A stretch of 64,000 nt of DNA from Martinezella multihospitum (GTDB lineage Bacteria; Pseudomonadota; Alphaproteobacteria; Rhizobiales; Rhizobiaceae). The notes below the pieces were generated by a model. That model did not search any database and had not been told where the DNA came from. It saw nothing but the letters and a program-made list of their open reading frames with translations. This document shows positions 2,991-8,862 of the stretch, piece by piece (positions within the stretch are counted from its first letter, which is position 1; each line of letters begins with the position of its first letter). The stretch lies in the NCBI RefSeq assembly GCF_900094585.1, contig NZ_FMAG01000012.1, positions 62,001 to 126,000 on the forward strand, written 5' to 3'. Position numbers and translations under genes: made by a program.

Positions 2991-3242
2991 ATGAACAAGA
3001 CGATTCGCGATTTGCTGGCCAAGTTCGGCGCGCTTCCCGTTGCTATCGATCAAATTGAAGACGATGCTGATCTTTACGCAACCGGACTGTCTTCCTTCGC
3101 TTCCGTACAGCTGATGCTTGGCATCGAGGAAGCCTTCGATATCGAGTTTCCCGACAATCTGCTGAACCGCAAGTCCTTCGCCAGCATCGCCGCGATCGAA
3201 AGAACCGTCGGCATGATCCTCGATAGTAGAAAGGTCGCATGA
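2991..3242 (+). CDS. Aminoacyl carrier protein (atypical ACP-like protein)
   Basis: Small phosphopantetheine carrier of 83 residues. In ordinary ACPs the prosthetic serine lies in a DSL motif at the start of helix II. Here the same place reads GLSSFASVQL, with Ser35 as the likely attachment site and the preceding Asp replaced by Ser. The rest (acidic helices, 'EEAFDIEFPDNLL') has ACP shape. Carrier proteins of this type are known in Bradyrhizobium and Agrobacterium as acceptors for seryl-tRNA-synthetase-like amino acid:[carrier protein] ligases, and such a ligase lies two genes downstream. A start ATG preceded by AGAAGGGAC supports the position. The stop codon overlaps the next start (ATGA). 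It is not the fatty-acid AcpP. Confidence 0.85.
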   Translation: MNKTIRDLLAKFGALPVAIDQIEDDADLYATGLSSFASVQLMLGIEEAFDIEFPDNLLNRKSFASIAAIERTVGMILDSRKVA

Positions 3243-4435
3243 TGAGTGCGGCGGTCGCTTTACTTGAGGTTGGGACGGGCGAGGGAGCGGCGGTGCGCGC
3301 CGCCCGCGTCGCAGCGATCGCCAGCCAGCACGCCGATGCCGTCGATGCCGAGGGCCGGTTCCCGCAGGAAGCCGTTGACGCCATGCGCGCCGAGAAGCTT
3401 CTTTCCATCCAGATTCCCGCCGATCTCGGCGGCGAAGGCGCGTCGATGACCGAAATCGCCGAGCTCTGCTCGATCCTCGGCCAGGCCTGTGCGGCGAGCG
3501 CCATGGTCTTCGCCATGCACCAGATCAAGCTATCGAGCCTGGTCGAGCATGGCGTCGACAGCGACTGGCACCGCGACTTCATGCGCCGCATCGCTAGGGA
3601 ACAGCTTCTTCTCGCTTCGGCAACGACCGAAGGCGGGATCGGCGGCAACCTGCGCAACAGCATCTGCGCCATCAAGGTCGAAGGCGACACCTGCTATCTC
3701 GAAAAAGATGCGACTGTCATTTCCTATGGCGCCCATGCCGACGCCATCCTCATTACATCGCGCAGCCATGCCGAGGCGGCTTCTTCCGATCAGGTGCTGA
3801 CCTGCTTCCTGAAGGACCAATACGATATCAAGCGCACCGTAGAGTGGAACACGCTCGGCATGCGCGGCACCTGCTCCGACGGCTTCCTGTTCAAGGGCGA
3901 GGCTCCGGCCAAGCAGATCCTGCCCAAGCCGTTTGCCGAGATCGCCGCGCAATCGATGCTGGCAAGCTCGCACCTGCTCTGGAGCGGTGTTTGGTATGGC
4001 ATTGCCGCCGATGCGGTTTCCCGCGCACAGGCTTTCGTGCGTGCCGCCGCCCGCAAGTCTCCCGGCGCGCCACCACCCGGCGCCCTGCGCCTCGCCGAGG
4101 CCTCCAGCATGCTGCAGATGGTGAAATCCAATGTGGTTGCCGGGCTGAAGGCCTATGAAGAGGCCAAGCTCGATGCGGACCGCCTGTCGTCTATGGCTTT
4201 CGCCGTGGCGATGAACAACGTCAAGATCGCTTCGTCCGAGATGATCTTGCCGATCATCAACCACGCCATGCTGATCTGCGGCATCATGGGCTACAAGAAC
4301 GGTACGCCCTACAGCCTCGGCCGCCACCTGCGCGACGCGCATTCGGCACAATTGATGATCTCGAATGACCGCATTCTCGGCAATACGTCGACCATGCTGC
4401 TCGTCCACAAACAAGATACCAGCCTGTTGGGGTAA
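3239..4435 (+). CDS. Acyl-CoA-dehydrogenase-like flavoprotein of the aminoacyl-carrier-protein cluster
   Basis: 398-residue member of the acyl-CoA dehydrogenase fold: an N-terminal helical domain ('[16 protein letters not shown]'), a central beta domain ('[15 protein letters not shown]', FAD and substrate side) and a C-terminal helical domain. In short-chain and medium-chain enzymes the catalytic glutamate lies in an EGT motif after an RDA(R/H) sequence. Here '[17 protein letters not shown]' has no Glu at that place, so the chemistry may differ. It overlaps the carrier-protein gene by four bases and is followed after five bases by the ligase gene, so it is clearly co-transcribed with both. 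A plausible substrate is an aminoacyl thioester on the carrier protein, by analogy with prolyl-carrier dehydrogenases of the same superfamily. That role is inferred. Confidence 0.75.
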
Positions 4436-4440
4436 TCGTC

Positions 4441-5349
4441 ATGGATATGCAAACATCGTTTCTCGACCGTCTTTTCGAATCCGGCCTGCTGATCGACACC
4501 GGCGTTGATGGCCTCTACGGTCGCAGCGGCCAGTTCGAAGACGTCATTTCCGCCTTCGAGCGGCTGATCGACAAGTTCGGCGGCGCCGATGGCGCCGAAG
4601 CTATCCGCTTTCCGCCCGGCATGAACCGCGCCTTCTTCGAAACCAGCGGCTACATGAAGAGCTTCCCGCAGCTGGCCGGCACGGTGCACAGCTTCTGCGG
4701 CAACGAGCTCGACCATATGGGCCTGTTGAAGTGCATGGAAGTCGGCGACGACTGGACGAAAGATCAACAGGCGACCGATATCGTGCTGACGCCGGCGGCC
4801 TGCTATCCGCTCTATCCGACGGTTGCCAAGCGCGGCGCCATTCCGGAAGACGGCGCGCTCTACGATCTGCAATCCTATTGCTTCCGTCATGAGCCCTCCA
4901 AGGACCCGGCCCGCCAGCAGCTCTTCCGCATGCGCGAATATGTCTGCATGGGCAGCGAAAAGCATGTGACGGATTTCCGCCAGAGCTGGATGGATCGCGG
5001 TGTCGAGATGATGAAGGCCGTCGGCCTCGATGTGACCATCGATGTCGCCAACGACCCGTTCTTTGGCCGCGCCGGCAAGATGCTTGCCAACAACCAGCGC
5101 GACCAGAATCTGAAGTTCGAGCTGCTGATCCCGATCACCTCTGTCGCCAAGCCGACCGCCTGCATGAGTTTCAACTATCACCAGGATGCCTTTGGCACGA
5201 AGTGGGGTCTGAACTTTGCTGATGGCAGCGTCGTGCACACGGCCTGCGTCGGCTTCGGCCTGGAGCGCATCGCGCTGGCGCTGTTCCATACCCACGGTCT
5301 CGACACCAAGGAATGGCCCGAGAGCGTGCGCAAGGCGCTGTGGGGCTGA
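4441..5349 (+). CDS. Amino acid:[carrier protein] ligase (atypical seryl-tRNA synthetase homologue)
   Basis: Class II aminoacyl-tRNA-synthetase-like enzyme of 302 residues. It would activate a small amino acid with ATP and load it on the phosphopantetheine arm of the carrier protein rather than on tRNA. It resembles the catalytic core of the zinc-containing methanogen-type SerRS and has no tRNA-binding arm. Cys121 (AACYPLYP), Glu166 (MREYVC) and Cys269 (HTACVGFG) have spacings of 45 and 103 residues. From memory these match the zinc ligands Cys131, Glu176 and Cys279 of the characterised Bradyrhizobium ligase. Motif 2 (CFRHEPS...FRMRE) and motif 3 ([12 protein letters not shown]) are visible. 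Characterised homologues activate glycine or alanine; the substrate here cannot be read from sequence. Confidence 0.88.
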
Positions 5350-5357
5350 TCGCTTCC

Positions 5358-6317
5358 ATGGCTGCCGTCTTTCAAGGGTTGGAACCCGCCACCTACAAGC
5401 CACATGCGCTGCACGACAGCGAGCGCATGTGGCCAGAGACGAACTGCTACATCGATCTCTGGATCGAGGTGCTTTCGAGCCTGAAGCTACCGCCGGAAGC
5501 CATGCTCGGCTTCACGGTGACACAGGATTTCGAGGGTGACCAGTTCACCTTCTTCAAGGCACCGCTCGAGGATCTCGAAGCGCTTTACGGCGTTCGCTGC
5601 ACCGAGCTCGCGATCTACGACAAGGTTGAGAACCATGTCGCCGAGCAGATCGGTCGCGGCCGGCTTTGCCTGGTGGAGATGGATTCCTTCTTCATGCCGG
5701 ATACTCAAGGGATCGGCTATCGCCGCGAACACGGCAAGACGACGGTGGCGATCAACCGGCTCGATATGCAGGGTCGCAGGCTCGACTATTTCCACAATGG
5801 CGGCTTCTTCCAGCTGTCGGGTGAGGATTTCGACGGGCTTTTCCAACTGCATCTGACGGATGAGGACCTGCCCTTCCTGCCTTACACGGAATTTGCGAAA
5901 TTCCCGGAGAAGGCACCGGCCGAAGCCGCGATCCGTCAGACGGCGCGGCAGCTTCTGTCCTTTCATTTCCGCCGCCGACCGAAGGCTAATCCGATCCGCG
6001 CCTTCGCGGAGGTCTTCCCTGTGCAGGTGGAAGCGGTCGCCGAACGGCCTTTCGGCTTCTTCCATAAATATGCTTTCAACACGCTGCGCCAGCTCGGCGC
6101 CAATTTCGAACTGGCCGGCAGCCATTTCGATTGGTTCTCGGCCGATTTGTCCGATGCGGCGACAGAAGCGCGGAAAATTTCCGAGACAGCAAAATCGGTG
6201 CAGTTCCAGCTTGCCCGCGCCATCACGCGCAAGAAATTCGAGCCGTTGCGCACGGCCCTTGATCCTGCCGCTGATGCGTGGGATGCCATGATGGGCGAGC
6301 TCGAACGGAAGCTTTAG
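5358..6317 (+). CDS. DUF1839 family protein, possible carrier-protein-dependent aminoacyltransferase
   Basis: 319-residue protein of the DUF1839 family, which regularly accompanies the amino acid:[carrier protein] ligase in rhizobia. I chose the ATG at 5358, eight bases after the ligase stop; a longer frame from 5313 would overlap the ligase. No signal peptide or membrane segment is visible. The N-terminal half has a pattern like papain-fold acyltransferases of the BtrH type: a cysteine in ETNCYIDLW (Cys30), a histidine in RREHGKT (His125), an aspartate in INRLD (Asp136), and a preceding MDSFFMPD segment. BtrH takes an aminoacyl chain from a carrier protein in butirosin synthesis. A similar transfer role here is my inference and would complete the pathway. 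Confidence 0.7.
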   Translation: MAAVFQGLEPATYKPHALHDSERMWPETNCYIDLWIEVLSSLKLPPEAMLGFTVTQDFEGDQFTFFKAPLEDLEALYGVRCTELAIYDKVENHVAEQIGRGRLCLVEMDSFFMPDTQGIGYRREHGKTTVAINRLDMQGRRLDYFHNGGFFQLSGEDFDGLFQLHLTDEDLPFLPYTEFAKFPEKAPAEAAIRQTARQLLSFHFRRRPKANPIRAFAEVFPVQVEAVAERPFGFFHKYAFNTLRQLGANFELAGSHFDWFSADLSDAATEARKISETAKSVQFQLARAITRKKFEPLRTALDPAADAWDAMMGELERKL

Positions 6318-6393
6318 GCGGCTCCCGTTCGATCCGCGGCAGGCTGGGTCATTTCTGAAAATATTGGGGCGGGGAAATCCCCCGGAAGATGTC

Positions 6394-8862
6394 ATGGGCG
6401 GGCGCTTGGCGGATCTCGGCGGTGGAATGCGGCTGAGCGAAGGTTGGAATCTGGTACTGACGGAGGCGGGCACCTGCGTCTCGCCCTCTGACGTGCCGCT
6501 GACATCAGGCTTCATTCCGGCTCCAGTGCCGGGCACGGTGGCGGAAGCGCTGGAAAAGGCCGGGCGTTTCGACCGGACGAGGCCTCAGCCTCTGCATGAT
6601 AGCGATGCCTGGTACATCTGCCGTCTGGTGGATGCGGAGGCCGGCGAGGCGGTCTTGCGGCTCGAAGGGCTGGCGACGCTGTGCGAAGTCTTCCTGAACG
6701 GCCAGCAAATCCTCGTCTCCGAGAGCATGTTCGAAGCGCATGACGTCGACGTTACCTTGCTTGGCGGCGACGAGCTGGCACTTTGCTTCCGCGCGCTGGA
6801 GCCGAGGCTTTCCGAGCCCGGTCCGCGCGCCCGCTGGCGGCCGCAGATGATGACGCCGCAGGGCTTGCGGATGGTGCGCACGACGCTGCTCGGCCATATG
6901 CCCGGCTGGTGCCCGGAGGTTCAGGCGGTCGGCCCGTGGCGGCCGATTTCGCTTCTGCGGCCGAGTGCGCCCGTGATCCGCGATCTCTCCCTGCGGCCGG
7001 ATCTGCTCGATAACGGCGAAGGCAGGCTTTATGCCTCGCTGGCGGCCGAGGGCGATATCAACGAGCTGCTGCTGAAGTGCGGGGAGACGGAACAGGCGTT
7101 CGAGAAGGATGGTCCCGGGCGCTACACCGCAATCCTGAAAATTCCTGGCGTGGCGCCTTGGTGGCCGCATACGCATGGCACGCCGCAGCTTCATGATGTG
7201 ACGCTCATCGTCGATGGCGCCGAACACGCGCTTGGGCAGACCGGCTTTCGCCGGCTGTCCGTCGATCGCGGCGCCAATGGCGAGGATTTCGCTGTGATCG
7301 TCAATGGCGAGCGGATCTTCTGCCGAGGTGCCGTGTGGACCACGGCGGATATCGTGCGCCTGCCCGGCGGCAGCGACGATTACCGGAGCTGGCTGCGGCT
7401 GGCGGCCGAGGCCGGCATGAACATGATCCGCATAGGCGGCACTATGGCCTATGAGACGCCGGAGTTCTTCCGCCTCTGCGATGAACTTGGTCTGCTGGTC
7501 TGGCAGGACTTCATGTTCGCCAATTTCGACTATCCGAAGAACGACGCGGCCTTCAACGCCCATGTCGAATCGGAGGTTTCCGAGCTTCTGAACCGCACCC
7601 GCCTGTCGCCTTCGCTGGCGGTCCTTTGCGGCGGCAGCGAGATCCATCAGCAGGCGGCCATGATGGGCTTGCCCGAACAGTTCTGGAAAAGCCCCATCGT
7701 CGAGGAGATCATCCCGCCGCTGGTGCAAACGCTGCGGCCGGATGTGCCCTATGTGGTCAATTCGCCCTCAGGCGGTGCCATGCCGTTTTCGCCGAATGCC
7801 GGGGTCACGCATTATTATGGCGTCGGCGCTTACATGCGGCCGCTTGCCGACGCGCGCTGTGCCGACGTCCGCTTTGCTGCCGAGAGCCTGGCTTTCGCGC
7901 ATGTGCCGCAAGCCCGCACGCTCGGTCAGCATCTGCCGGTTCCGGCAGTCCATAGCCCGCTATGGAAAGAGCGTGTGCCGCGCGATCGCGGCGCGTCCTG
8001 GGATTTCGAGGATGTGCGCGACCATTATCTTCAAGAACTCTACGGCTTCGAGCCCAATCGGCTGCGGCGGGAAGACCCGGATCTCTATCTCAACCTTTCG
8101 CGCGCCGTGACTGGCGAAGTCGCCGAAGAGACCTATGCCGAGTGGCGCCGCCACGGTTCCGGCTGCAACGGCGCGCTCGTCTGGACGCTGCAGGACCTGC
8201 TTCCCGGCCCCGGTTGGGGTGTGATCGATTCCACCGGGGAGCCGAAGCCAGTCTGGTATGGACTACGCCGCGCCTTCCGGCCCGTGCAGGTGCTGTTGAT
8301 GGATGAGGGCACGAACGGTCTTGATGTTCATGTCATCAATGAAAGCGATACGGCGCTTGACCTGACGGTCGAGGTCTCCTGCCTGCGCGACGGCCGGCAG
8401 ATCGTCGTCGGTGGTGGCCGCGATCTGTTGGTAGAAGCGCGCGGCAAGCAAAAGATAGCCTGCACTGATCTTTTCGGCGCCTTCTTCGACACGACCTACG
8501 CCTTCCGTTTCGGGCCGCCGTCGCATGACGTGACTATGGCGCGGCTGACGGCGCCGGCAACGGGCTCTGTCATCGCTGAGGCCTTCTATTTTCCGCTTGG
8601 GCGCACCAAGGCGTTCCACGACGCTGAGATCACGGCATCGGCGGTACAGGAGGGCGAGGATTGGTATCTGGAGTTAAGAAGCGACCGGCTGGCGCAATCG
8701 GTGCAGATCGATCTGGAAGCCTATCGGGCCGAGGATGACTGGTTCCATCTTGCGCCAGGCAGCCGGCGGATTCGGCTGCACCGGCGAGAGAGTATTCCGG
8801 CCGATGTTGTTCCAGCCGGGCAAATCCGCTCCGTCGGCAGCCGGCGGATCGTGGAGGTGTGA
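6394..8862 (+). CDS. Glycoside hydrolase family 2 protein (beta-mannosidase-like)
   Basis: Large glycosidase of about 822 residues, with sugar-binding and immunoglobulin-like N-terminal domains followed by a TIM barrel. The acid/base glutamate is probably Glu416 in LCGGSEIHQQ, where classical beta-mannosidases have GNNE. The nucleophile is probably Glu497 in FAAESLAF. The C-terminal 'GALVWTLQDLLPGPGWGVID' segment is typical of GH2 mannosidase-like enzymes. No signal peptide is seen, so the enzyme is likely cytoplasmic. Start choice is uncertain: ATG at 6394, a TTG at 6364 or ATG at 6427 are all possible. It follows the DUF1839 gene by 76 bases on the same strand and may belong to the same operon. 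The substrate is unknown. Confidence 0.8.
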   Translation: MGGRLADLGGGMRLSEGWNLVLTEAGTCVSPSDVPLTSGFIPAPVPGTVAEALEKAGRFDRTRPQPLHDSDAWYICRLVDAEAGEAVLRLEGLATLCEVFLNGQQILVSESMFEAHDVDVTLLGGDELALCFRALEPRLSEPGPRARWRPQMMTPQGLRMVRTTLLGHMPGWCPEVQAVGPWRPISLLRPSAPVIRDLSLRPDLLDNGEGRLYASLAAEGDINELLLKCGETEQAFEKDGPGRYTAILKIPGVAPWWPHTHGTPQLHDVTLIVDGAEHALGQTGFRRLSVDRGANGEDFAVIVNGERIFCRGAVWTTADIVRLPGGSDDYRSWLRLAAEAGMNMIRIGGTMAYETPEFFRLCDELGLLVWQDFMFANFDYPKNDAAFNAHVESEVSELLNRTRLSPSLAVLCGGSEIHQQAAMMGLPEQFWKSPIVEEIIPPLVQTLRPDVPYVVNSPSGGAMPFSPNAGVTHYYGVGAYMRPLADARCADVRFAAESLAFAHVPQARTLGQHLPVPAVHSPLWKERVPRDRGASWDFEDVRDHYLQELYGFEPNRLRREDPDLYLNLSRAVTGEVAEETYAEWRRHGSGCNGALVWTLQDLLPGPGWGVIDSTGEPKPVWYGLRRAFRPVQVLLMDEGTNGLDVHVINESDTALDLTVEVSCLRDGRQIVVGGGRDLLVEARGKQKIACTDLFGAFFDTTYAFRFGPPSHDVTMARLTAPATGSVIAEAFYFPLGRTKAFHDAEITASAVQEGEDWYLELRSDRLAQSVQIDLEAYRAEDDWFHLAPGSRRIRLHRRESIPADVVPAGQIRSVGSRRIVEV

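Follow-up and report, generated by a model that had tools for sequence, protein, structure and literature searches.

Amino acid:[carrier protein] ligases are, to our knowledge, enzymes that have been described without an assigned pathway, and a locus of Martinezella multihospitum raises the question of what such a pathway might produce. The window analysed here is the whole 64,000-nucleotide stretch of contig NZ_FMAG01000012.1 (positions 62,001 to 126,000), in which a ligase gene of this family lies beside genes for a carrier protein, a flavoprotein with an acyl-CoA dehydrogenase (ACAD) fold, a DUF1839 protein and a glycoside hydrolase family 2 (GH2) protein. We conclude with moderate confidence that these five genes together encode a single cytoplasmic pathway, by which a sugar building block of an exopolysaccharide receives an acyl group derived from an amino acid. 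The original prediction, made from the bare sequence, had placed five such genes on one strand, and all five reading frames are indeed present and adjacent, with the families and the 76-base gap ahead of GH2 (counted from ATG 6394) confirmed:

2991..3242, + strand: carrier protein, 83 amino acids (PP-binding, 32.9 bits; NF005480, 119 bits, cut-off 72)
3093-3095, + strand: codon of carrier Ser35, the phosphopantetheine site, present in 59/59 aligned carriers
3239..4435, + strand: ACAD-fold flavoprotein, 398 amino acids (Acyl-CoA_dh_N and _1)
4441..5349, + strand: amino acid:[carrier protein] ligase, 302 amino acids (NF005479, 516 bits, cut-off 357)
5313 or 5358 to 6317, + strand: DUF1839 protein with a papain-like fold (PF08893, 448 bits, over the cut-off), starting at ATG 5313 (a 37-base overlap with the ligase gene) or at the in-frame ATG 5358 (8 bases past it)
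5445-5447, + strand: codon of DUF1839 Cys31, which is considered with Thr129/130 and His147 (numbering from codon 5355)
6364 or 6394 to 8862, + strand: GH2 protein of beta-mannosidase type (Glyco_hydro_2_N2), starting at TTG 6364 or at the in-frame ATG 6394

The genes behave as a unit. A ligase search gave 334 confirmed relatives, of which the best 80 loci were retained as close loci; this set was picked on ligase similarity, hence its rows are not independent. The order carrier, ACAD, ligase, DUF1839 is kept in 80/80 close loci, and a GH2 match comes next in 79 of them (in L072 it falls under the coverage limit, and in L067 it is broken). Ligases closest to that of the window, at 98-99% identity, come from Rhizobium dioscoreae, R. 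miluonense and R. tropici. Three overlapping genome samples extend the pattern. Among 297 genomes of the order, DUF1839 occurs in 49 and a ligase over the cut-off in 64, and in all 49 DUF1839 genomes the two share a contig at a distance of 31-455 bases, measured between profile edges. Among 385 genomes of the class, DUF1839 occurs in five and the ligase in ten, the two being adjacent in 5/5; DUF1839 is present in 16 of the 398 phylum genomes. Thus, the co-occurrence on which the original prediction staked its case is found for four genes in every close locus, and for DUF1839 and the ligase in every DUF1839 genome of the order.

The flanks were also considered as parts of the cassette. Just upstream, at 519-2632, are an EpmA-like lysine ligase for elongation factor P and a KamA-like aminomutase, EpmA being a second tRNA-synthetase relative beside the ligase. 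EpmA is nearby in 71/80 close loci and a sugar ABC transporter lies downstream in 28/80, and neither EpmA/KamA nor the transporter is retained beyond Rhizobiaceae loci, so both were rejected as members. A scan of 350 bases ahead of the carrier gene in the 80 loci for a sigma-54 promoter gave scores no better than those of shuffled sequences.

Conservation within the five proteins was counted from 62 carrier, 63 ACAD, 70 ligase, 55 DUF1839 and 59 GH2 hits. Rows were removed if they scored below a bit limit or had a length outside set limits; with the window row then added, 59, 55, 59, 49 and 47 rows remained, respectively. The three ligase residues singled out by the original prediction, Cys121, Glu166 and Cys269, each have an identical counterpart at the aligned position of the Bll0957 structures (PDB 3mey and 4h2w) and are present in 59/59 aligned ligases; we take them to be the zinc ligands. 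A Bll0957-type ligase reportedly loads an amino acid on a carrier protein. By this established family function, the first step of the pathway would be ATP-dependent activation of a substrate, probably glycine or alanine, and its loading on the Ser35-phosphopantetheine of the carrier.

Bll0957 is of the same family as the window ligase and has the same three zinc-site residues, but it comes from a sister clade. A tree of 70 ligases places the 52 encoded at DUF1839 loci on one branch (support 95/90) together with two from loci lacking DUF1839, whereas Bll0957-like ligases form a separate branch. The L207 ligase is nearly identical to crystallised Bll0957 (E 1.5e-203), and its locus has the carrier and ACAD genes with neither DUF1839 nor GH2 in the profile-guided gene picking. 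Because this procedure overlooks some genes, such as the ligase of L204, absences of neighbour genes are weak evidence. The trio of carrier, ACAD and ligase, which loci such as L207 have without DUF1839 and GH2, is therefore the core common to both versions; the two further genes distinguish the version found in the window. That the clade of the characterised ligase is without these two genes is a point beyond the original prediction. Neighbours of the other version (L207, L209 and L212-L218) include two AMP ligases, a short-chain dehydrogenase/reductase, a thiamine pyrophosphate enzyme, an aminotransferase and cupins, and this sister-clade trio looks like small-molecule chemistry. More distant ligases lie on plasmids of Streptomyces (22 records), Apilactobacillus (6) and Priestia (3), genera missing from the DUF1839 list.

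The flavoprotein does not look like an ordinary dehydrogenase. The window protein has Ser244 and Ile374 where dehydrogenases carry Glu, and none of the 55 flavoproteins has a catalytic Glu at either the MCAD or the IVD position; they have Ile or Val at the former and Ser, Ala, Cys or Thr at the latter. His94, His245 and Arg378 are invariant in the same 55. Both dehydrogenase Glu residues are absent; ordinary dehydrogenation is therefore unlikely, and classical Glu-dependent acyl-CoA dehydrogenation was rejected as the activity. Among 12 paralogues aligned from the same genome (three of its 16 ACAD-family matches, L240-L242, were left out), four have Glu at the MCAD or IVD place, one has Asp, five have a DszC-like motif and two have neither. 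The DszC-type motif RN-x-R-x-H-x-LH found in those five was not found in the window flavoprotein. In fold searches, dehydrogenases and oxygenases tie, with the nitrososynthases KijD3 and DnmZ among the relatives. The fold is common to KijD3, DnmZ and TdsC, which are N- or S-oxygenases, and to the carrier-acting ACADs RedW and ColB1; the window protein, with no Glu at the dehydrogenase positions, resembles them in this, although identity to these proteins is only about 15-21%. Oxidation at nitrogen appears likelier from these residues, and both C-N oxidation and N-oxygenation are candidates. In the second step, the flavoprotein would oxidise the aminoacyl group held on the carrier, with nitrogen or the C-N bond as the most likely site, because both Glu residues for alpha,beta-dehydrogenation are missing and glycine has no beta carbon.

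What would follow is suggested by the DUF1839 protein. Its structure model, built from 38 sequences, has a mean predicted local distance difference test score (pLDDT) of 85.4 and a predicted template modelling score (pTM) of 0.86. All 11 Foldseek matches at E <=0.001 are chains of AziU2/U3, CtaG and CcbD. CtaG and AziU2/U3 act in natural-product pathways. The VIA comparison gave Z scores of 18.4 for CcbD (3.6 A over 283 residues), 17.9 for AziU2/U3 and 16.9 for CtaG, with the next match, an unrelated fold, at 7.7; a sequence search of DUF1839 against solved structures gave a best E of only 0.25. Likeness to CcbD/LmbD, CtaG and AziU2/U3 thus covers the whole length of the fold and the Cys nucleophile, whereas identity to CcbD, CtaG and AziU2/U3 is 10-15% and DUF1839 has no assembly line nearby. 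A review describes CcbD as moving carrier-bound proline to its own cysteine and then to the amino group of a thiooctose, with arginines close to the C-terminus binding the carrier (PMC12945683, in the part available). DUF1839 Arg288, kept in 49/49 rows, is a candidate counterpart of these arginines. The papain fold of DUF1839, its Cys-Thr/Ser-His triad (that of CcbD is Cys-His-Glu) and a guessed role in glycan processing at the cell wall have been printed previously (PMC10318531), and the text available from that source has no mention of CcbD, AziU3 or CtaG.

Cys31 is present in 47/49 DUF1839 rows. The exceptions, L200 and L202, belong with L234 (Cupriavidus metallidurans) to genomes that have two DUF1839 copies with the cassette copy altered: in these three, Cys31 is replaced by Gln or Arg, Thr129 by Ser or Ala and Thr130 by Cys. 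The second copy retains Cys31 and Thr129/130 in all three cases. These two-copy cases (L200, L201/L202 and L234) suggest that the protein may act as a mixed dimer. Membership of the BtrH family was rejected: the genome of the window has no BtrH_N match. BtrH is also missing from the fold matches, which by itself would still leave room for it.

It is quite improbable, in our judgement, that DUF1839 is no transferase and instead acts as a hydrolase, editing the group on the carrier or releasing it. Papain folds are mostly hydrolytic, according to the part of PMC10318531 consulted, but the full-length match is to carrier-dependent amide-forming enzymes, at Z 18 compared with less than 8 for single-domain papain folds. 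Transfer by DUF1839 is thus supported by its predicted fold and conserved residues. In the third step, modelled on CcbD with its aminosugar, Cys31 would accept the acyl group and then donate it to a putative acceptor through an amine or hydroxyl, the acceptor being a sugar, a lipid-linked sugar or a nucleotide sugar. The sequence of loading, oxidation and transfer offered by the original prediction therefore survives in part. Loading agrees with the ligase family and the conserved site, and transfer with the fold and residues of DUF1839; for oxidation, the flavoprotein fold stands and ordinary dehydrogenation is unlikely given the missing Glu residues.

Best solved relatives of the GH2 protein are beta-mannosidases. 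Glu426 and Glu507 (numbered from TTG 6364), which we take to be the acid/base and nucleophile, are present in 47/47 rows, and a crude hydropathy check found no leader. In the fourth step, this enzyme would trim or proofread the glycan. Seven cassette copies adjoin nif genes (L053, L067, L072, L231, L254, L255 and L256), and all seven have intact reading frames for the first four genes, whereas GH2 is open in 3/7 and disrupted by frame changes or stops in the other four. GH2 is the most expendable of the five members. A reading in which it is a passenger from sugar catabolism, and the real unit has four genes, would fit these broken frames and the sugar ABC transporter that comes next in part of the close loci. 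We nevertheless regard it as unlikely, given that GH2 stands behind DUF1839 in Azospirillum, Mycetohabitans, Shinella, Burkholderia and Cupriavidus and that both catalytic Glu residues are retained throughout. The nif-linked copies are second cassette copies on symbiotic plasmids of bean-nodulating strains, downstream of nifDKENX and fdxB; in annotated records, three are preceded by an exopolysaccharide repressor gene and two are followed by a gene for 1-aminocyclopropane-1-carboxylate (ACC) deaminase.

A link to exopolysaccharide emerges from the neighbours of DUF1839-type loci, which include Wzz/Wzc, GT4, Wzx, WbaP, ManC, Wza and a membrane acyltransferase. Exopolysaccharide classes or an alpha/beta hydrolase were counted at 35/53 DUF1839-type loci and at 5/18 loci of the other version (Fisher p 0.006, a comparison that includes related rows, two loci of one genome and the common class GT4). 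This hydrolase has sub-cut-off similarity to exosortase-associated hydrolases 1 and 2, and its gene comes sixth, after the five, in two Azospirillum records and one Mycetohabitans record. In the genome of the window, a 49% relative is encoded on a different contig, next to a flippase and a glycosyltransferase. There, at L253 3357-8884, a two-domain hydrolase, the flippase and the glycosyltransferase lie together as a candidate partner polysaccharide locus.

In Burkholderia cenocepacia the context is closer. On NZ_CP091013 a CRP-type regulator gene precedes carrier, ACAD, ligase, DUF1839 and GH2, after which come a reversed sigma-54/VpsR regulator, an open reading frame with no Pfam match, ManC, two glycosyltransferases and Wzc. 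The Bep exopolysaccharide cluster is given as Bcam1330-1341, with ManC as Bcam1340, BerB as Bcam1342 and BerA as Bcam1349, in the available text of PMC3584217 and PMC5552954. The NZ_CP091013 order was matched to this published map, and therefore the cassette occupies the BerB-BerA stretch; from domains and order we infer that the two regulators are probably BerA and BerB. The published Bep cluster thus excludes the cassette genes, which lie between the BerA-like and BerB-like regulators. Rhizobium copies lie away from a polysaccharide locus, unlike these Bep-linked copies. In a biofilm screen, 15 of the 18 genes of the related bec cluster were recovered, and a mutant of becG, which has an acyl-CoA dehydrogenase domain, had reduced biofilm and smooth colonies (PMC5507470). 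By position, becF-K would be the cassette genes, with becF perhaps the carrier.

Several observations weigh against an exopolysaccharide pathway. No counted exopolysaccharide class was picked near 18/53 DUF1839-type loci, including those of the R. tropici group, and the five loci of the other version noted above also have a counted class nearby. The GH2 frames disrupted in four nif-linked copies belong here as well. In the material available from PMC5507470, the becG value of 0.84 is that of the mildest bec mutant in the printed table, and becF was in the library and was not recovered. A solved B. cenocepacia biofilm polysaccharide contains only galactose, glucose and mannose, with no amino sugar or acyl group, in the part of PMC7084887 consulted; that polysaccharide was measured in sodium deuteroxide (NaOD), which strips esters, and may not be Bep. 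The glycan link of the original prediction is accordingly carried by the exopolysaccharide neighbours of part of the loci and by the Burkholderia context, and weakened by the broken GH2 genes.

The main rival explanation keeps the same loading, oxidation and transfer but holds that the product is a free small molecule, such as an amide joining an oxidised amino acid to an aminosugar, made on a soluble acceptor metabolite and co-regulated with the polysaccharide without being part of it. This is a possibility to be taken seriously, if an improbable one. The three closest DUF1839 folds belong to natural-product pathways, the R. tropici group has no exopolysaccharide locus beside its cassette, and the sister-clade trio is accompanied by AMP ligases, a thiamine pyrophosphate enzyme and an aminotransferase. 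However, neither a dedicated exporter gene nor any further biosynthetic gene consistently accompanies the five, and exopolysaccharide genes recur instead.

If an exopolysaccharide is the acceptor, the cassette would invite comparison with the Dlt and Alm systems, in which amino acids borne on a carrier are attached to teichoic acid and lipid A. Like them, it would load an amino acid on a small carrier for delivery to a glycan or lipid of the cell surface, whereas it differs in its activating enzyme, which resembles an aminoacyl-tRNA synthetase (aaRS), in its transferase, in its extra flavoprotein and in having no DltB-type membrane enzyme among its five members. Indeed, none of the five genes matches the DltA/DltB/DltD set, and the carrier scores 26 bits for DltC, for which the cut-off is 68. 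A broader proposal, tentative and on balance doubtful, is that in many Proteobacteria the exopolysaccharides related to biofilms and nodules carry an as yet unseen N-oxidised glycyl or alanyl substituent. An aaRS-like ligase and an ACAD-fold enzyme would build it on a carrier protein, and a CcbD-like transferase would attach it. Among the matches listed for open-licence literature, none links the ligase to exopolysaccharide or assigns a pathway to such ligases, and one paper names DUF1839.

For the ligase family, the cassette offers a partner of known chemistry and a testable purpose. The product would best be sought in the cyclic di-GMP-controlled polysaccharides of Burkholderia and on the symbiotic plasmids of bean rhizobia, and the pathway proposed here suggests a role for the unexplained genes between BerA and BerB.
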